Positions 5,545-55,660 of a DNA stretch of 64,000 nt are shown in pieces; the stretch's first letter is position 1, and each line of letters begins with the position of its first letter. This stretch comes from Erodium maritimum (Eukaryota; Streptophyta; Magnoliopsida; Geraniales; Geraniaceae). Location of the stretch: assembly GCA_963921825.1 (NCBI GenBank), contig OY997588.1, forward strand, positions 130,789,203 through 130,853,202. Reading direction: 5' to 3'. The position numbers were made by a program, and so were the translations under genes. Under the pieces are notes generated by a model. That model had not been told where the DNA came from, made no database searches, and saw nothing but the letters and a program-made list of their open reading frames with translations.

Positions 5545-8500
5545 GAATTCTCTCATGGAATGTGTGGGGTGCTTCTTCTTCTCAGAAGCACAGGATGATC
5601 AGAAACGTGCAACACAAGCAATCATGCAACTTCCTTATGCTTTAAGAAACTAAACTCTCTTCTCCCACAATTGCTTTTATTAAGGACTGTGGTTTATCTG
5701 CTTCTTGGGGCTTCGATTTTATTCCTTCTTCTAGGGCGTCTGGGGGTATTATTTCAGCTTGGAACTCTGACATTTTCGATCACTCTTATTGCATCAAAGA
5801 TCCCTCTGCTCTTTATTGGTTTGGTATTTATAAACCCTTACAGCTAGAAATTTGTATCCTCAATGTTTATGCTCCATGTGGAGGTAGAGAAAGGAGGGGG
5901 TTGTGGGATGAGATCAGATTTAGACATGGAAGTATACACGTTCCAGTCATTTGGGGTGGTGATTTTAATGATACTCTTTATGCTTCTGACAGAACTTCTT
6001 CAAGAATTAATTCAGCACAGGTCAATCTATTCAAGCAACTAATTGATGATCTAGAGTTACTTGATTTTCCCCTGGTGGGAGGGTCTTATACTTGGTTTGG
6101 ACATGGTAATCGAGCTTCCAGAATTGATAGACTGTTGGTTAATCCCTCTCTTCTTCTCAATTTCCCTCTTTGGTCTATGTAATGCCTGCCTAGATCGATC
6201 TCGGATCATAAACCACTTTTCCTATCCTCTCCTTTGGTTAACTGGGGTCCTAAACCTTTCAAGTTTTATAACTCTTGGTTGGATCACAAATCCTTTTGGC
6301 CTGATGTCAAAATGTGTTGGAACAATATTATGGTCTCTGGTGATCCTCAGTTCAAGCTATGGTACAAGCTAAAGACTCTAAAGGCTTTTTTAAAGAATTG
6401 GAGAGTGAGCACATTTGGAAACCTAGAGTTGGAAATTGTTGAACTCACAAACTCAATAAATTCAGTTGATATCTTAATGGAAACCATGCCTCTATCTGAT
6501 CTTGAAAGCAGTCATAGGGCTCTCTCTTCTGCACTGTTGATTAGGAAACTGAAGTCACAGTCCAAAGTTTGGAGACAAAGTTCCAAATTACACTAGATCT
6601 TATAAGGGGATAAGTGTTCTAGGTACTTTCATATCATTGCTAACTTGAAGTTCAACATAAATAAGTTGTGTGGTATCATGGTGGGGGATACTTTGGAGGA
6701 GGATCATGTGAGGATCAAATACTTGGCAGCTGAACACTTCTCCAGTAGATTCAAGAAAGGGAGAACAACCCCTTTGGACCTATCTATATTGTCCTTCCAA
6801 AAGCTCTCTCAGGCTCAGGCAGCATCCTTGGAAAGTCCATTCTCTGAGTGTGAAATTCTGGCAGCCATAAAGGACTGTAATGGTTATAAATCCCCTGGCC
6901 CTGATGGGTATACCTTGGCATTCTTTCAGAAGGGTTGGGAATTTCTTAAAGAAGACATTGTGGATTTCTGTAATCATTTTTATCAGGTTGGCTCTTTGGG
7001 AAAAGGAGTCAACTCTTCTTTCATCACACTGATTCCCAAAGTTATTTCTCCTCTTGATTTTGGGGACTACAGGCCAATAAGTCTTGTGGGTGCACCTTAC
7101 AAAATTATCTCCAAATTACTAGCTCCCAGATTAAAGAAAGTGATGGGAGCCTTGATCAGTGATGTTCAGTCAGGCTTTGTGGCTGGGAGACAGATCTTGG
7201 ATGGGGTTTTGGTGGCTTCTGAGGTCATAGACACAGTCAAAAAATCAAAGGAAGAGGTTCTCTTATTTAGGGTGGATTTTGAGCAGGCTTATGACCATGT
7301 GGATTGGGGTTTCTTACTCAAACTACTCAACACTTTGGGCTTTGGTCAGAAATGGATCAACTGGATGAGTGCGTGTATTAGAGCTTGGGTTTCTGTACTG
7401 ATAAATGGTTCTCCCACATCAGACTTTCAAATGGAGAGAGGCTTGAGACAGGGCTACTCTCTCTCCCCATTACTCTTTACTCTTGTAGCTGAAACTCTGC
7501 ATCAATTGATGATAAAGGGGACTGCTCTAGCTATGTTCAAGGGCATTTCATTTGGGGAAGATGGCCCCATCATCTCCCATCTGCAATTTGCAGATGATAA
7601 ATTGACATGTATTAAGGCTAATCCTCCAAGCCTCATTAACCTGAAACATACTCTTCTGATTCTACAAAGTGTAACAGGTCTTAAGATTAACTTCCACAAG
7701 TCTAGAGCAGTGTTGTTGAATCTTTGTCAGATGAATGTCTCAATGGTAGTTAATATTCTGGGGGCTGAGATCACAACCCTCCCTCTTGATTATCTGGGGT
7801 TCCAATTAGGTGCCAACCCTAGAAGATATAAAACCTGGGAGCCCATCATCAACAAATTCAAGAACAAACTCAGTCTTTGGCAGGAAAAATTCTTATCCTT
7901 TGGGGGAAGGATCACACTGATCAAGTCATCTTTGAGCTCTCTCCCACTTTATCACATGTCATTATTCAAAGCTCCTAAAGGTATTATAAAAGAGATGGAA
8001 AGATGGAAAAGTTGATTCTTGTAGAATGGATCTGTGGCAAGAAGAGTTCTTCACAACGTTAGATGGGACCTTATTTGCAAAACAAAGGATGAGGGTGGAT
8101 TGGGGATCAAGAGGTTGGCAATTCTAAATGATGCTTTACTTGATAAATGGTGGAGGAGGTTTGCCACTGAGACTGATACTCTTTGGAAAAAAGTTCTTTG
8201 TGCCAAATACAAATGGGATATTAGAGACTGGGATTTGTCTGCAACATTCATCAACAAAGGAGTGAGTTTTTTGGATCATTTCTCATCACTCATGTCTGAT
8301 CCTACATTCTGCAATGCTTTTGGCACCACTGGTTTGGGGTGGTCTATTGGAAATGGGGAAAAGATTAAATTTTGGGAGGATCTATGGATATCTAACACTC
8401 CTTTAAAGATTCAATACAAGAGGCTATTCTATCTCAGTACAGAAAAAAGTAGGAGAGCTTGTGAACTTTGGAGGCATGGAGATTGGAACTTTCATTTCAA

Positions 8501-12399: not shown

Positions 12400-13652
12400 A
12401 AATGATAGAGAGAGCAGTGCACAAAACAACGCATGGAGGCAAAGGATCGAAAGTAGGGGACCTTCCCGATGATAGATTGACAGAGGTTGTCTCAAAATCC
12501 ACAATTGACGGATGCAGGATTATTTCGTCGAGCACCCGACATATGGGCTCGATATGTTTAGGCGTCGATTTCGTATGTCCCGACAACTCTTTCAACGGGT
12601 AATGGATGCGGTAGCGGAGCATGAAGATTACTTTGTTTAGAAGTCGGACAGTGCAGGACACTTGGGGTTATCAACGCACCAAAAATGCAATGTCAGGATA
12701 TAAATGCTAGCATATGAGTGCTCGGTCGATTCATTGGACGAAACGCTGCATATGTGGGAAAGTACCATACTCCAATGTGTAAAACGTTTTTGTAAGACCG
12801 TTATTGGGGTGTTCATGGAGTAATACAAGCGGAAGCCAAATGTGGAGGATATGCAGTGATTACTTGAATCGGGGTACAACCGAGGGTTCCCCGGTATGAT
12901 TAGCAGTCTTGACTACATGCATTGGGAATGGAAGAATTTCCCAACCGCATTGCAAGGAGCCTACGGTCGAGGAGACCACCACAGGGGATGCAACCGTTAT
13001 GCTTGAAGCGATAGCGTCCCATGATTTGTGGATCTGGCATGCGTTTTTCGGGATGTCTGGCTCGAACAACAACATCAACGTCCTCTACGCCGACCACTTA
13101 TTCCAAGACGCTTTCCATGGTCGTGACCTCGTCGTGGAGTACGAGATCAATGGACATCGCTACAACCATCCATATTATTTAGTTGACGGCATTTACCCTT
13201 CATGGAGTCGGTTCGTGAAGTTGATTCCCCATCCTTATACTCGCAAAGAGAAATTGTTTGCTAAAGTCCAAGAAGATGCTCGAAAAGATATTGAACGGTC
13301 TTTTGGATTCCTCCAAGCGCGGTGGCACATGATTTTAAGGCCCACTCGTGTTTGGAGCAGGACGACTTTGGCTGATATGATGCATGCTTGTAATATTCTA
13401 CACAACATGATTGTGGAGGATGAACGTGACCGGTACGAAGTAGGGGATGACGAATTGTATTACGAGCCCCATCCGGAAATACCAGGTTCGACACCACCTC
13501 AACGATGGCATGAAGGAGTGCCCATGTCCTACCGAGAACGGTTGCGTGCTCGACTAAATGTCAAAACTGATGAGACCCATCGGCAACTCCAAGATGACCT
13601 TCTTGAGCACATATGGGGCGGTTTGGAACGACGACAACGACAAGTGAGATGA
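12400..13652 (+). pseudogene. PIF/Harbinger transposase (HARBI1/ALP1-like DDE nuclease), degenerate
   Basis: Homology starts near 12520 with DYFVEHPTYGLDMF and RFRMSRQLFQRV, which is followed by in-frame stops (TAG near 12639 and others). The first catalytic Asp sits in SLDYMHWEWKNFP (about 12905-12945). A frameshift near 12970 moves the remainder into the long frame 12909-13652, which contains HDLWIWHAFFGMSGSNNDI-like sequence, the second Asp in LVDGIYPSW (about 13180) and the Glu in DIERSFGFLQARW (about 13290). The C-terminus has the family signature NILHNMIVEDERD (about 13390-13430). The DDE residues are therefore still visible, but the gene is broken by at least one frameshift and several stops. 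The partner Myb-like Harbinger protein was not seen. Confidence 0.85.
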
Positions 13653-19871: not shown

Positions 19872-22800
19872 TTATAGCTGCAACTGCCCAGGACCTCTCC
19901 TAGAGGATCTTGAAGGAGGCCTGGTCATATCTGATGCTGGAGCTCGGCGAGGTTCCTCTGGTCTTTGCTCCTCTTTCACCTGTGGTAGGCAAGCCATCTA
20001 TGTCATTCCAACAATAGCATGGCCCTCAATATCATCCATAATTTTTTTTTACAACTATACATTCATTGCCATGTCATCAACTTTTTGAGCCCAGCATGCT
20101 TATTTCAAATCAATAATATTAACAAGATGATAATCACAAACCTTATGTTGTGTACTAGAGTTAGTACGCAATCGCGCCTGTGCTTTTGAATGTGTGCGAT
20201 GCTGCCTTTGCATGCTTTCAAACTGTTGGAGTCTTGTAGCAAAGTTAATCCCATTGTGCGAATTCCCAGCATCTTGGTTTACTTCACCATCCTCTATATT
20301 TATATGATGATGAGAGTATGGGTTGTTGCCTGAAGATGTTCGCTTCAGCTGCTCAGTGTTGAAGGAATATGAAGGTACCGTCTTTAAACGAGTTCGTAAT
20401 ATCTTAAAGGCGGCACTTTGCTGCATCGATCAAACATATATGCACAAAAAAAATTATGGTTCGTTTTAATTTTCAGGTAACGAATACATGCTGCAGCTAG
20501 GTTATGAACACCTTCTAATGGTATACAATTTAAAAAAGGGATAATTGTCAAAACATGCACTAATGTTTCGTCCACAAACGAAATAGTGCACAATGTTTTG
20601 TCCACGTCGTCTGGCTACCCTTATGAATCGTCCACGCACTTCTGTTAGAAAAATTAACGGAATATTCCATTTCTGTTATACATGTGCAGTTAAAGTATAA
20701 CTGAAATGACCCTTTTACCCTTATCATGAATCTTTTGACTTTTCCTTTTGACTTTTGCATGAGACATTACCATTCTACTCTTTCTAATAAAAAACAAATT
20801 AAAAAATAAATAAATAGACAAATAAAATTTATTTTTTTAATTTCTTATAATTAAAAAAATCATTACTTTCATAAAATCAAATTTTCTTATTAATTGTTTT
20901 TAGTTCTTTTCATTATTTTTTTTTATTATTATTATTGTTTTTTTCATTTTTTTTTTTTTTGAATTTCAAACCAATAGGGAAAAATTGAGGGTATATCAGT
21001 CTTTTAACTCATTCTTATTTTTGAATTTCAAACCAAAAGGGCAAAATTGTCAATTCAGGTTCTGCTGTTACACTTTTCTAACAGAAGTGCGTGGACGATT
21101 CATAAGGGTAGTCAGACGACGTGGACAAAACATTGTGCACTATTTCGTTTGTGGACGAAACATTAGTGCATGTTTTGACAATTATCCCTTTAAAAAAATA
21201 AACGAATCTCTCAGCAAAGAAAAGATTTGGTAAGCAAGATGAAAAAAAAGTTGAGATAGTGGACTTGATTGTGTTGTATGCCTACACACCTGAGGAAGCA
21301 ACATCAAGAGACCATACAATGCTTTCAGTAACCATATATATCTGCCAGGTTCAAGAAGCTGCAAGAACCAGAAAACAGATCATTTTCTCTGTATACAGAT
21401 TAATTTAATATAAGTGCTGATGATAAGAAAATTGCAAACAACAATATAGTTCATTGAAACATAAGTCAGATTATGCATAACAAAAAAATAAAGCATTGGA
21501 CAAGTGACACTTTGCATGGGATTGTGAAGAAAAGGTGGAGGTCTATATATATTGGGAACTTCCACCTCATTCTACACCCACACTAGCTGGAAGGATATAG
21601 TTTATAGGGTTAATTCCACCTCGGTACCCCAAATCTTTCATATTTCATTTAGAGTACCCTAAATCTTTTTTGTGTCATCTCAATACCCTAAATCTTTCAT
21701 ATTTCATTTAGAGTACCCTAAATCTTTTTTGTGTCACCTCAGTACCCTAAACTTTTATTAGTTCCATTTTAGTACCCTAAACTTTCATTAATTTCATTTT
21801 AGTACCCGCCGTTAACTTTACCATAATTTTGGTTGTTGGTGAGGGGTAGTATGGTCATTTTACCTGTTTTGGATCTAAAATCATATGTAAAGTTAAAGGT
21901 GGGTACTAAAATGGAATCAATGAAAGTTTAGGGTACCGAGGTGACACAAAAAAGATTTAGGGTACTCTAAATGAATTAATGAAAGTTTAGGGTACTGAGG
22001 TGACACATAAAAGATTTAGGGTACTCTAAATGAAATATGAAAGATTTAGGGTACTGAGGTGGAATTATCCCTAGTCTATATTCTGGTAAAGAAAAATCAG
22101 TCTCGTTTAAGCCATTTCTTCAGATTTCCTAGCTAAATGTAGTTTGGTTAGAAACATAATATCATCCGTGAGTCACCATGACAGTATGACACTACACCAG
22201 TTCAATGCAAATCTGAAAGTGATCCTTCAAATATGGACAAGCAAAGAACACACTCGGGAACAGGGTTGAATAAATACAAAAGAAGTATCTTAATGTTCAT
22301 TTCAAAGACCCTATAGCATAAAGATCAGATACTGAAACCAGGGCAGCAAATACTCATTTGGTCACTAAGCTTCCATGAAACAAGCCAGCATTAGAAATAC
22401 CGGTCATGTAGTTGGAACTTGAGCACAAACTTAGTTACCAACTAGAAAAAGAACTATGACATGATCACAAACTTATTTTACCATCCTAATACTACAATCA
22501 CTTATGTATGTTGTGACTAGTTTACCTGCAATCTAAGATAGGCGAAGATTGGAGTTTCCAACAATCTAATCAATTTATCCAGCTGGACCAAGAATTTGAC
22601 ATTAATATCTTCCTCCACCATAGACTGAATCACAGCACTGGCATGCTGGTAAGTCTGTTAAACAAAACATGAAACAAGAAAATACACAGCATCAATGAGG
22701 GACAACAAAAAAAGTAAACATGTTGTAACCACCTTGCCATATGATGTTCAAGCTCGTACCTGAGCCAAAAAGCAAAGGCTTATGATCGCCATGGGTGAAT

Positions 22801-35058: not shown

Positions 35059-38000
35059 ATGGAACTCTTTCGCGCCTTCAAATCTTCATCTATCGTCTCT
35101 TGGAAACATGTAATGTCCTCTCTCTCTCTCTCTATCTGTATCTGTATATGGTTACATAGATACAGTTGTATCGCTTTTCTTTTCTCTGTCTCCGTCGTTG
35201 ACTCCCTACTTGCTTTACTATTTTTTCCCCTTCATCATCGCAGACCGGGCAGCTACAGAAAACCCTAGCGGGGTGCGCAGGGCTGACAGGCACGGCTCTC
35301 CACTCCGGTACCCTTTCTACGGTCAGGCTACTTCCCGAAGCTGCCGGCGTTGGCAGATACTTCCGCTGCCGATCCACTTCCATTCCGGCCTCCATCGATT
35401 TCGCCCACCATTCGCCTCTCTGCACGACGCTTCGCAACAATGGAATCACCATTAGGACCGTCGAGCATTTGCTCTCCGCTCTGGAGGCCGCTGGGGTTGA
35501 TAATTGTAGAATCGAAATCGATAATGCAGATTCAGAGGAGAACAATGTAGAGGTCGGTGGATTGATGATTTAGTTTTTGAATTTGACTTCTGTGTAATTA
35601 ACTATTGTGGCTTCATAGCTATGCTTCAGAATCCATTAGATTGTATGTTTGTTGTTGAAAATGACAAGACAGAAGATTCATAGGGCTAACATGTAACTAA
35701 TACAGGTTCCTATTCTTGATGGGTCAGCTAGAGAATGGATGGAGCTGATTGAAGAAGTTGGGTTGAAGAATGCTACAGATCAGTGTGGTCAAAGCTGTGA
35801 AAAGATGGCACCATTTTTGAATGAACCTGTGCATGTATGGAGGGATGATGCTTTTGTAGCTGCATTTCCATCACCCAAGGTTCGTGTTACTTACGGGATT
35901 GACTTTCTACAGGTATGTTGACAATTCTTATCATTCATCTTTCGGGATGCAAAGTTGGAGTTTGTTTTGCTAACAATAGATTTTTTTATCTCTCCAATAA
36001 TTCTATGTGAGTCCTTGGGTCTTCAGTTTTTAACTTATTTATATATCTAGTAACATTTGTTTCCAGAAAGAATGCAAAATCTTTTGATCATGTCTAATTG
36101 AAGAGGTGTTTAAGTGCTTGTATTATTGGCCTAATGTCCCATAGTTAAGAGCTAAGCTCAGGTAAATTTTTAACTTGAAAACTGATTTTCTTCTTTTGAT
36201 AAGAATGGCTTTATGGATTTGATTTCTACGATGAGCAGAAAGATTGGAATGGGTAACGCAATGATAGTAGGGAGATTGATTAGTAATCCTTGTATACATT
36301 ATTCTCTCCTTACCTGGCAGGTACCTGCCATTGGCTGTCAGTGGTTTTCTTCAGCCCCTTTGGATGGCCTTTTCTATTCCGAACAAATTGCATCTTCAAG
36401 AACCTTTTGCATTTATGAAGAGGTATTATCTCATGTCATACAGTACTTTTGCTACTATACAGAGGAAATGAATTGAATGGGTGACTAAGTTCCTTTTATA
36501 GAAATATTAAATTTGATGAAAGCCACGAAGCTATTGTTACTTGTAAGTTATAACTATATTTCAATATATAAGGTGAAAACAGGAGATCACTCCATCCAGA
36601 TAATTACCCCTATCTGTTCATATGTTTGAGTTGGATGTACAAAGCAAACAAATTTCATGTATAATAGTACAGTTGTTTTTTCAATGGTTGGTCATGTTAT
36701 GTTTCACTTTGAAATAGGTGGAGAAGATGCGCAATGTTGGACTCATCAAGGGAGGTTCTCTTGACAATGCCATTGTTTGTAGGTAGAATTTCGGTAATGT
36801 ATCTCTGTTCCTAAATGCTTGGTCTATTGACTGGCAGCATACTGAGAAAACCGGTGCATGTCACAAGTCCTTGCCCTTTGGACACATGAGAAACATTTAC
36901 CAAAATTCCTTTTGTATGCTCCTAGTCAATACCAATTCGAATCAGCCTACTTCAATTTCAATTTAGGTGCCAATTGGAATTAGATGTATGTTGAAATCTG
37001 TAGATTGACCTGGACTAATGTGCACATTGGATTTAATTTCTAGCTAGTTAAGTTTTCAAAACCAGCCAAACTGCTTTTGAGGCGTGTAGGGAGTGGTTGA
37101 CAAATTAAGTCATAAGTGATGATTATGAGATACCAACAAAAACTTATTCCTTGCACAAAAGGGTTATGGTATGAATGGTCTGAACTCCATGTTAGATTGG
37201 CTTTCATTGGCTTGGCATCTTAACTTTTGGTTCTCATGTCATGGCCAAGTAAGTAGTCAACTCATCACTTATGTGGCAAACATGCAGCGTAGGCTAGAGT
37301 TGGGCGTGTTTGTGCTATTCTTGAGCCAATGTGTTACGTGCCTCGTCGATGGATCTCGTTATGCGACCCTGATATGACTTCAAATCAAGGGTTTGTTGGA
37401 ACGAATCCTTGTTCTTCTTTCGCCCAATGGTGTAGGGGTATGAGCTCAGTGGTAGGGAACTCAAAGACCTTCGGTGAGACAGAAATTATTCTTTAATTCT
37501 AGTCTGATTTATTCAATTATACCTCTCTGGTATATATAGCCAGAGAGGTTGCCTAAAACACAAATCCTACCTTAATTTGCTACGTACCCAAATCCTAATA
37601 CAACTTGACTACCAAGCAATAATAAAAAGAAACCTAATTAATTCCAAAACCTAATACAATTGTATTTTAATAAGACAATTAAAAGGAAATATTAAAAATC
37701 AGCCGACTCTGCCCTATTCCCTCTTGTGCGCGCGCGCGATTACTCCAATTGGGGTGGGCTTATCCCATCCCATTACGGTCCGTAAGGCCCGTAACATCAC
37801 TCCCCCCTTGCAGATGGCGCTTGTCCTCAAGCGCATACGGTGGATCAGCCTCGTCCTCACCCTCCTCCTCGTATAGCTCCAACCAAAAGAGATTTTTGCA
37901 TTTATGACCAAAGCTGTAGGCTTCGTCGCAATTAAAACAAAGTCCTTTCGCAATACGATCCTTCTTTTCTTCTTCGGAAATACGTTTAACGTGCGGCCTC

Positions 38001-39646
38001 GGAGGAGCTGAATTCTGCATCTGCTGGCGACTTGGGGCACGAAATTCACCTCGAGCCTTCTTTTCGTAGAGCTTTGCCAAGCCAATTGCAGTAGTCAAGT
38101 CCGGTGGTTGTTGTATCTCTACGTCAATCGCCAAATTATCCACAAGGCCACTTAGGTACAGGGCAATCTCCTGGTCAACTCGCAGATCGGGGACCTGTGC
38201 TGCCAAGCGCTCGAACTGAGCTGAGTAGTCCGCCACCGACCCTTCCTGGCGGAGCTTTGCCAGCTCACCTAACCTGCTACATGACAATATGGAACCAAAA
38301 CGAGAATTGCAATAGAGTTTAAATGCAGGCCAATTCAGGTTTGGCGAGGTTTTGTGGATCTTCATATACCAGAGCTGCGCATCGTCCTCCATGTGGAACG
38401 ATGCCAGCAAGACCTTTTCTTCTGCAGGGGTATGTTGATGGAGGAAATAACCCTCACAGCGGTTTAACCATGCCGTCGGGTCGGAGCGCCCATCGAAACG
38501 CGGGAATTCCAGCCGTGCAAAACGAGGAGCCGGAGGCCCACCTTCGCTGGCCGAACCTGTTCCTGAGGATGGCGGAACTGCTCGTGACGGCTGCACTGCT
38601 GCCGGGGCCGAGCTTTCCTCCTGCAGGGTTGCTGGGTTGGAAAGAGCCTGCACCTGGACAGCCAGATTCTTGAATTCCTGTCGATCAGCTGCATAACGGG
38701 TCATGAACAACTCGAACTTCTGCTGGAAAGGCATCTCTAGGTCCATAACGATTGGCTCTGATACCAATTTGTTATGACCCTGCGTAATCGATCGCGTTAT
38801 GGGATAGGATACGGGCTCGTTAATTAGGAACCCGAAGACCTTTTGATACAAGCTCATGATTATAGAGGGAACTCGAGGACCTCGTAGAGAGAGACCAAAA
38901 TATTTCTTTAAATTCTTAGTCTGATTTATTCAATTATACCTCTCTGGTATATATAGCCAGAGAGGTTGCCTAAAACACAAATCCTACCTTAATTTGCTAC
39001 TTACCCAAATCCTAATACAACTTGACTACCAAGCAATAATAAAAGGAAACCTAATTAATTCCAAAACCTAATGCAATTGTATTTTAATAAGACAATTAAA
39101 AGGAAAATTAAAAATCAGCCGACTCTGCCCTATTCCCTCTAGCGCGCGCGATTACTCCAATTGGGGTGGGCTTATCCCATCCCATTACGGTCCGTAAGGC
39201 CCGTAACACAATGGTACAAGTAGCGCGAGAAAATAAAGGAATGAAAGAACCTATCAATAGTTTCATATGCTTGATCCTTCTTATTCTTCTGTTGCAGTGC
39301 CAGTAAAGGTTGGTTGAATCCACCACTACGTTTCGATGATGAACCTTGTCGCCATAAGGTCTTAGATCTTATAGGCGATCTTTCCCTTTTTGCACGATAT
39401 GGAAGTCAGGGGATTCCAGTAGCGCACATAGTTGCACACAAGGCATGTATATTTCTCTCATTTTACTGTTACCATTTGTAATTAATTGATGGTCCATTGC
39501 ATTTTCTACTATAACATGGATTTAATGCATATTGTGGGATGAAAATGAACCACTCATGAAATTTGAATATGGTACAGGGAGGGCATGCTCTGCATATGGA
39601 TTTCGCCCGTCGCCTGTTACAGAAAGCAATGTGTTCAGAAAGTTGA
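35059..39646 (+). CDS. LPXC: UDP-3-O-acyl-N-acetylglucosamine deacetylase (plant LpxC)
   Basis: The exons are 35059-35109, 35244-35552, 35706-35912, 36321-36422, 36718-36782, 39298-39442 and 39578-39646, giving 315 aa. LpxC removes the N-acetyl group from UDP-3-O-acyl-GlcNAc, the committed step of the lipid A pathway; the plant enzyme is reported in mitochondria. The zinc and catalytic residues are present by position: E91-H92 in [11 protein letters not shown]264 and D268 in [12 protein letters not shown], and H296 in GGHAL (compare E. coli E78/H79, H238/D242 and H265). Exon 1 encodes a short, basic, Ser-rich leader ([17 protein letters not shown]) that fits an organelle signal. Intron 5 (36783-39297) holds an antisense gag-only LTR element. 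The last intron starts GC instead of GT (AAG|GCATGT at 39443). Confidence 0.93.
37332..37796 (-). repeat. 3' LTR of the gag-only element
   Basis: Plus-strand ends TGTTACGTGCC and GGCCCGTAACA. From about 37496 to 37796 it matches 38914-39208 with only a few changes (for example GTGCGCGCGCGCG against GCGCGCG, and one extra base in GGAAATATTAAAAA). The first 160 bp are largely different from the partner LTR. Confidence 0.88.
37760..38746 (-). CDS. Gag protein of the gag-only LTR element
   Basis: The open frame starts at the ATG at 38744-38746 ([14 protein letters not shown]), 5 to 20 bases beyond the primer-binding site, and gives 328 aa without interruption. The central part is the Retrotrans_gag capsid domain ([48 protein letters not shown]). 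A zinc knuckle follows: [16 protein letters not shown], a CCHC pattern with the spacing usual for Ty3-type gag. After [11 protein letters not shown] the frame runs into the 3' LTR, so the last dozen residues are LTR-encoded. The frame is intact, which suggests recent insertion or selection to be packaged by an autonomous partner. Confidence 0.88.
   Translation of the reverse strand: MDLEMPFQQKFELFMTRYAADRQEFKNLAVQVQALSNPATLQEESSAPAAVQPSRAVPPSSGTGSASEGGPPAPRFARLEFPRFDGRSDPTAWLNRCEGYFLHQHTPAEEKVLLASFHMEDDAQLWYMKIHKTSPNLNWPAFKLYCNSRFGSILSCSRLGELAKLRQEGSVADYSAQFERLAAQVPDLRVDQEIALYLSGLVDNLAIDVEIQQPPDLTTAIGLAKLYEKKARGEFRAPSRQQMQNSAPPRPHVKRISEEEKKDRIAKGLCFNCDEAYSFGHKCKNLFWLELYEEEGEDEADPPYALEDKRHLQGGSDVTGLTDRNGMG
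38770..39208 (-). repeat. 5' LTR of the gag-only element
   Basis: Plus-strand ends TGTTATGACCC and GGCCCGTAACA. It adjoins the primer-binding site on its lower side and the CAATG duplication on its upper side. Confidence 0.88.
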
Positions 39647-54590: not shown

Positions 54591-54822
54591 TCTTTTTTTT
54601 TTTTTTGACGAAAATGAGGGATTTATAAAACTGAATCAGAAGCCAGTAACCCAAAAATGGATTCTAGCAATGAAGAATAATCACACACCACAGATGCTCA
54701 CTCACGGGCATTAGAGCTACCATGTTTGCAGATCTTTTTACATGAACTACATTAACTTCTACCATACAAGAAAGAATCGGTTTACAATCTTCAATAATAG
54801 CTCATAACGGAGTGATCAGAAC

Positions 54823-55020
54823 CCATGAGAGTATACCCCTACTCTCCTCGGTGGGTCGACTTTTAGAGGAAAATCGAGATTTGTTATTGTTTTTCGAGAA
54901 TGTTCAACTCGCAGTATGTGACTGAGACAACATACGAAGATGCTTACTGACTGGTCAAAAAGGCTCGTTTTGTACATGTTATTTCGTGATCCAAGTTTAC
55001 AGTTCTTAAGAGCCAAAACT
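54823..55020 (+). repeat. Left arm of a 198-bp inverted repeat
   Basis: This arm is the reverse complement of 55176-55373, with about three differences over 198 bp. The 155-bp spacer holds RNase H-like coding sequence. A transcript across it would fold into a long hairpin. Confidence 0.9.
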
Positions 55021-55175
55021 AATGTGGATGGTTCCCCGTGTTTTATGCAATGTAAGGTGTTTGGGGGCTATCAAGACCCGGAAGTGCTAGAGGCTTTGAC
55101 ATTGAAGGCGGCGTTGCAAGAGCTTGCGGACCGAGGTATGGGAAACGGGGTGGTCCAATCGGATTGTTTGGGATT

Positions 55176-55373
55176 AGTTTTGGCTCTTAAGTACTGTAAA
55201 CTTGGATCACGAAATAACATGTACAAAACGAGCCTTTTTGACCAGTCAGTAAGCATCTTCGTTTGTTGTCTCAGTCACATACTGCGAGTTGAACATTCTC
55301 GAAAAACAATAACAAATCTCGATTTTCCTCTAAAAGTCGACCCACCAAGGAGAGTAGGGGTATACTCTCATGG
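55176..55373 (-). repeat. Right arm of the 198-bp inverted repeat
   Basis: It pairs with 54823-55020. The differences I saw are at the GTACTG/GAACTG, CGTTTG/CGTATG and CCAAGG/CCGAGG positions. Confidence 0.9.
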
Positions 55374-55660
55374 ATTAACCCATAACGTATTGGGCATCAC
55401 TCCATGCAAGAACCCGAGCATGCCAATTCTGTTGTACCCATAATAGAGCCATCTTCCAGTCCTTGTACACTTGAGAGGGTATCATTCCTTCTCTCCAGAA
55501 CTCCTCTATGTCATATCTACAAAGATACCCCATGCCATATGGCGCATTTTTGAGAAGACTGCTTCGTCTATATTTATCGTAGTCCAACCTGACGAAGAGA
55601 CCACCGGGTCTTTCTCTGTTGAGGTTGGGATGGGGTAGGGGTGATGCGGACAAGGTGGAC

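Follow-up and report, generated by a model that had tools for sequence, protein, structure and literature searches.

TR-GAG elements, reportedly described by Chaparro et al. in 2015, are one of several known systems with which we compare a long terminal repeat (LTR) retrotransposon of 1,877 bases from a 64-kb stretch of the Erodium maritimum genome (contig OY997588.1, positions 130,789,203 to 130,853,202; this whole stretch is called the window). The element, copy W, lies at 37332-39208 on the minus strand of the window; pol is absent from it and gag is its one open reading frame (ORF), and other copies are labelled T, G, A and L. A TR-GAG member of Arabidopsis, AT5TE33540 (ATCOPIA63, with a gag of 562 amino acids), has been seen to transpose (PMC8704663). 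W too has two LTRs, a single gag ORF, no pol and a related pol-bearing element, but it differs in having a gag put together from two lineages and a mismatched pair of LTRs. The non-autonomous Athila elements of Arabidopsis, described in 2008, include gag-only families whose gag is under purifying selection (omega 0.19-0.38); distant families have recombined, the gag of Va-rec is mixed in origin, and hybrid proteins occur in family VI as well (PMC2410132). The W family is likewise gag-only, with a gag dN/dS (ratio of nonsynonymous to synonymous divergence) of about 0.2 and a recombinant gag; Athila, however, is a separate Ty3/gypsy lineage, and the available part of that paper mentions no mismatched LTR pair (PMC2410132). 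In wheat, RLG_Quinta and RLG_Cereba include a gag-bearing non-autonomous partner, with gag divergent between the lineages and flanks alike, for which template switching was proposed; that pair is targeted to centromeres and has an extra domain of unknown function (DUF) (PMC11302176), whereas W has its breakpoint within gag, close to where capsid and nucleocapsid meet. The wheat Sabrina and WHAM elements are also described as cooperating sets (PMC9744471). In experiments with Onsen, hybrid LTRs were found in 21 of 75 new insertions, most switches fitted a first template switch in the repeated LTR region (R), and the hybrids were attributed to co-packaged RNAs; there the switching took place within one family, whereas the W LTRs differ from one another in the unique 5' region (U5) (PMC5668417). 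Because of the TR-GAG, Athila, Quinta and Onsen precedents, the kind of element that W represents is already known. Gag-only families with a recombinant gag are on record (Athila, Quinta), and what varies in W is that gag itself holds the breakpoint and that the two U5s differ. We read W as a trans-mobilised, gag-only element of Ty3/gypsy kin whose present form would stem from template switches between RNAs packaged in one particle, with a probability of roughly 0.8.

Our results showed that the internal region of W is a chimera, with the leader and capsid nearest to pol-bearing elements and the nucleocapsid and polypurine tract nearest to pol-less elements. In 60-base sliding windows the first ~720 internal bases were 87-100% identical to the pol-bearing A1 copies A9, A11 and A13 and 51-80% identical to the gag-type-2 copies G29, G30 and G36; beyond ~720 the identity to the A1 copies was 67-75% and then 37-38%, and that to the gag-type-2 copies was 82-95%. 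At 238 diagnostic sites, W carried the A1 and G states at 153 and 1 sites before the breakpoint and at 2 and 76 sites after it, the remainder being other states. The breakpoint interval was 726-734 in seven of eight gag copies and 689-704 in T4; among the pol-bearing elements fetched, this test used the A1 copies L009-L013 only. The trees used L009, L011, L013, L050, L051, L054 and L055 as the pol-bearing set, three of the eight gag copies entered the capsid and nucleocapsid trees, and L049, a partial A1-like copy, was in no test. In the capsid-part tree the gag copies fell inside clade A1 (support 97/97), and in the tree of positions 734-900 they grouped with gag-only elements (100/99) and away from the seven pol-bearing copies of the set. 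A simple deletion of pol had been our initial assumption for W, and it was overturned by the sliding-window comparison. The history implied by the sequence-only reading made before this analysis, a gag-pol element minus its pol, does not fit the W lineage, in which the capsid half goes with pol-bearing elements and the 3' half with gag-only ones, and the U5 of the 5' LTR is foreign.

The exchange may not have been a single event. A single capsid clade was rejected both for the eight gag copies (p-AU, approximately unbiased test, 0.0011) and for the five A1 copies (p-AU 2.4e-5), and in G32 and G35, too, a capsid on the A1 side is joined to a gag-only 3' part. From these rejections and the G32/G35 pattern, autonomous and gag-only elements seem to have exchanged capsid sequence on more than one occasion. 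The pol of L054 and L055, both pol-bearing, is 87-88% like that of L013, and their gag is nearer to type 2 (77-79%) than to type 1 (69-70%); this pattern suggests that gag may have been exchanged among autonomous elements too.

Among the places read, the 3' module was seen only in pol-less copies. With the nucleocapsid positions as query, 33 places were found at an identity of at least 82% (40 of 55 candidates scored). In 32 of them the nucleocapsid is followed by a pol-end remnant, the polypurine tract and the start of the LTR, and the remaining one, which is the first of the copies in L028, is broken by an LTR; because a string search was too strict, L034 and several of nine short stretches were judged by eye. 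No protease was seen downstream of the nucleocapsid module in these 33 places, one of them LTR-interrupted, and the pol-bearing copies in hand had a nucleocapsid identity of 70-77%. The last 39 nucleotides (nt) before the LTR were 82-87% identical to the pol end of A1 copies, and we infer that, before acquiring its present capsid, this lineage would have had gag joined to the pol end by a deletion.

The sequence-only reading was right that W has two LTRs, and it did not mention that they are alike only over the unique 3' region (U3) and R, with 4 differences in 285 aligned sites and 5 gap columns. The U5 regions are greatly different, being 147 nt (type A) in the 5' LTR and 168 nt (type B) in the 3' LTR. 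The divergence begins about 35-40 bases past the start of a TATA-like stretch, an onset that appears to lie near the putative start of R. The two U3s are one haplotype; they are sisters in the LTR tree (95/89) and agree at eight of nine columns separating TRIM-type (terminal-repeat retrotransposon in miniature) from other LTRs, with one base private to W in both, and they differ at the ninth column (76) and in several private changes. The other six gag-type-1 insertions, with seven gag copies, carry U5-B in both LTRs, and in all three LTRs of the tandem one. TRIM-like elements with a short (L014-L020) or a longer (L044-L047) internal part have U5-A as their U5. With the final stretch of U5-A and the gag leader as query, the full U5-A/AAT/gag-leader join was found in W alone among the places scored (40 of 515 candidates), bar one match of 76% over the query (L048, C1:74201981), which was read as TRIM-like. 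L031 and L034 are further insertions mixing LTR types inside perfect outer duplications. In L031 (788-3094) an A-type LTR without its last bases is fused directly to a B-type LTR that is truncated and belongs to a gag-only element, with an outer GTTTA duplication, and L034 (822-3774) is a three-LTR composite of, in order, a B-type LTR, a TRIM-like internal part, an A-type LTR, gag type 2 and a B-type LTR, in which the A-type LTR carries a different U3 and a perfect CCTCT duplication lies outside. The left end of L008/L042 is rearranged.

The mixed origin of gag and of the LTR ends suggests that these elements may travel and recombine in shared particles. Pol-bearing relatives, in intact form, would supply or have supplied protease, reverse transcriptase and integrase in trans, the gag-only, TRIM-like and autonomous RNAs would be packaged together, and the reverse transcriptase would switch template between the co-packaged RNAs. 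The minus strand would start at a gag-only 3' end and switch to an A1 template at the capsid/nucleocapsid border, giving the chimera, and plus-strand transfer at the primer site would then restore the gag-only 5' LTR and spacer, giving the structure of the family. For W an extra step would be needed, a switch at the end of the primer site onto a TRIM-like U5, finished through the shared R, which could give the odd 5' LTR. T2 shares its spacer AAC with G30 and G36, and T4 shares AAA with G29, with an A1-like leader behind, which fits with a crossover at the primer site; the spacers of W and T5-T7 are AAT, the same as in the five A1 copies, a match that the mechanism does not need.

Several points weigh against this reading of W. 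The diagnostic sites were picked from the A1 and G copies themselves, and therefore those copies fit by construction. Seven nucleocapsid matches of 74-79% and 15 candidates fall outside the reading of the 33 places, and L041 is a gag-only copy with a different nucleocapsid (67.5%). The five A1 copies have broken frames, and therefore there is no intact helper among them. A lost autonomous family, or one outside the fetched set, with an A1-like capsid and this nucleocapsid would also fit the breakpoint. The dN/dS values discussed below are confounded because capsid parts were exchanged with autonomous elements, and for gag type 2 (three copies, two pairs computed) they were 0.49 and 0.35.

Among the other explanations, the one that survives best, although we hold it to be less likely than not, is gene conversion after insertion, in which a TRIM-like element would have served as donor for the 5' LTR and the U5 mismatch would have resulted. 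The U3-R of the W 5' LTR is 93.6-97.5% identical to TRIM-type U3-R, which would provide a long homologous arm on one side, and at least 30 other places, among 40 scored of 879 candidates, have matches to both U5-A and the greater part of U3-R. The second arm, however, would be the short primer-site stretch only, the tract must run from near R to the exact end of the LTR and leave the AAT spacer of the family in place, and L031 and L034 are likewise mixed-LTR insertions with perfect outer duplications. Much less probable is a plain TR-GAG origin, i.e., one internal deletion of pol followed by a clonal family. The gag-to-pol-end junction is common to the family members, and the 39-nt remnant suggests that such a deletion founded the 3' module, but the nearest relatives of capsid and nucleocapsid differ across a sharp breakpoint and the single capsid clade of gag copies was rejected. 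Slightly less probable still is an intermolecular plus-strand transfer that took the whole 5' LTR from a TRIM-like cDNA. This was our first model for the U5 mismatch, and the switch does sit at the border of LTR and primer site; it predicts unlike U3s, however, and was disfavoured by the shared U3 haplotype and by the spacer, which is AAT in W and TAT in TRIM elements. An assembly error that collapsed LTR copies into a mixed one is very improbable, for although repeats are the usual site of such errors, the join described above is at no other scored place and nothing else scored matches the 5' LTR better than 96%, and therefore this LTR does not look copied from elsewhere in the assembly.

The suggestion of the sequence-only reading that W is one of a replicating non-autonomous family was supported by the genome search (763 Mb, 40 contigs), and the case that would have spoken against it, a unique W, was not what we found. 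At least 74 places match W, and at least 11 of these, W included, span all 1,877 bases (40 of 859 candidates scored). Seven gag-type-1 insertions (W, T2, T4, T5, T6, T7 and T8) have seven different perfect 5-base duplications, and T2 (L043:2154-5494) is a tandem of LTR-gag-LTR-gag-LTR within one GTATG duplication. The family to which W belongs is gag-only, has replicated and has inserted independently several times. LTRs, a duplication, primer site, polypurine tract, a sole gag and several copies of the same structure are all present, in agreement with the TR-GAG-like class proposed earlier. A three-LTR TRIM-like tandem similar to that in L043 was seen in L016, with a GAGCA duplication. Duplications were also perfect in five of seven other gag-only entries, four of six TRIM-like entries and six of seven solo LTRs; the remaining entries have one mismatch or undelimited ends, and the outer ends of the five A1 copies are undelimited. 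The gag is open in W (328 codons), T4 (332) and T5 (327) and broken in T2a, T2b, T6 and T7, T8 being left out for want of a usable frame. The T5 LTRs are identical over 469 sites, and the other insertions have a divergence K of 0.014-0.031. Dating by LTR comparison is unreliable, and fails, for copies such as W because their LTRs were perhaps never identical in U5; from the U3-R difference, with literature substitution rates of 1.3e-8 and 7e-9, the age of W would be roughly 0.5-1.0 million years. No further copy of the W family was found inside the window. The W gag query found no relative in viral contigs or in bacterial and archaeal contigs, and little was expected of the latter.

Pairwise dN/dS among seven gag copies (T8 left out) was 0.18-0.31 in all but one of the 21 pairs, the exception being the two tandem copies in L043 at 0.75. 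For the five A1 copies it was 0.07-0.33 in eight of ten pairs and 0.64 and 0.78 in the other two, and in 15 pairs of gag copies against A1 it was 0.09-0.17. The corresponding ratio of uncorrected proportions, pN/pS, was 0.15-0.31 for the capsid in five pairs and 0.09-0.72 for the nucleocapsid, with small counts. The gag is conserved, and part of the constraint may perhaps come from time spent in autonomous elements.

Two of the five A1 copies, L013 and L009, were searched in pieces and contain gag, protease, reverse transcriptase, RNase H and integrase in the Ty3/gypsy order. The Pfam Chromo match of L013 is weak (18.1 bits, below the cut-off of 25.1, E 0.0027). L012 is an internally deleted A1 element with gag and part of the protease, ~1 kb from gag to the polypurine tract. 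A short LTR, a 5-bp duplication, a putative Met primer site and an ORF entering the 3' LTR are Reina-like traits present in W, and its kin are probably Ty3/gypsy chromoviruses of the Reina clade. The Reina-clade families Bingo1-7 of beet have LTRs of 293-503, a 5-bp duplication and a Met primer site within 3 nt, and the ORF enters the 3' LTR in five of the seven families; these elements are 5.3-5.8 kb long with pol, in contrast to W without pol (PMC3605345). The TRIM definition, which has no coding region, does not suit W with its gag of 328 codons.

The features of W are collected in Table 1. The element coordinates, the CAATG duplication, the primer site, the polypurine tract, the uninterrupted 328-codon gag and the absence of pol were all re-read and agree with the sequence-only reading; TGGTATCAGAGCC would match initiator tRNA-Met and is thus a putative Met-type primer site. 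The LTRs have TG...CA termini and the CAATG flanks are perfect. The gag has Pfam matches to Retrotrans_gag (2.5e-11) and Ty3_capsid (1.6e-9). A CCHC knuckle had been claimed; a motif that resembles a zinc knuckle is there, but its spacing, C-x2-C-x7-H-x-C, differs from the canonical CCHC one, and zf-CCHC had no Pfam match in W gag at E<=1. The antisense insertion in LpxC was confirmed by LpxC Pfam matches on the flanking pieces 35202-35570 and 39302-39445, on either side of the intron, and by splice sites read by eye, and W is 84 bases from the 3' splice site of the intron.

Table 1. Positions of the features of copy W and of its insertion site in the window
Feature	Position	Strand	Remark
LpxC intron holding the insertion, antisense	36783..39297	+	splice sites read by eye
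Left-hand CAATG target-site duplication	37327..37331
3' LTR, 465 bp	37332..37796	-	U3-R 37507-37796; U5 type B 37332-37499
Gag ORF, 328 codons + stop	37760..38746	-	stop inside the 3' LTR
3' module common to other gag-only elements: end of gag (nucleocapsid), remnant of the pol end, polypurine tract	37797..38035	-
Polypurine tract AAGGGGGGAGTGA	37797..37809	-	adjoins the 3' LTR
Pol-end remnant, 39 nt	37797..37835	-	in frame with gag; includes the polypurine tract
Zinc-knuckle-like motif, 14 residues	37898..37939	-
Recombination breakpoint, capsid/nucleocapsid border	38036..38044	-	internal positions 726-734
Leader and capsid half of gag, kin to pol-bearing clade A1	38045..38769	-
Primer-binding site TGGTATCAGAGCC	38754..38766	-	spacer AAT, 3 nt to the 5' LTR
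5' LTR, 439 bp	38770..39208	-	U3-R 38924-39208; U5 type A, TRIM-like, 38770-38916
Right-hand CAATG target-site duplication	39209..39213

Elsewhere in the window, ORFs of reverse transcriptase with Pfam RVT_1 are at 1-1005 and 6606-8012, and these are presumably long interspersed nuclear elements (LINEs) by their look. A plant transposase ORF is at 12900-13649 (Plant_tran, 3.3e-63). Long inverted repeats are at 54820-55376 (arms of 204 bp, 98%) and 20535-21191 (arms of 118 bp, 99%), possibly foldback or MITE-like (miniature inverted-repeat transposable element) elements.

As a tentative proposal, to which we give somewhat less than even odds, a pol-less chassis of nucleocapsid end, polypurine tract and U3 might persist by swapping its capsid with that of the active autonomous lineage, which would enable Gag and helper to assemble together; the gag-only, TRIM-like and autonomous elements would then be one recombining pool, and mixed-U5 pairs would be its by-products. 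W suggests that a gag-only element need not be a dying deletion, as its capsid half apparently came from pol-bearing relatives after pol was lost and the exchange seemingly continued. The matching of capsids between parasite and helper elements thereby becomes testable.

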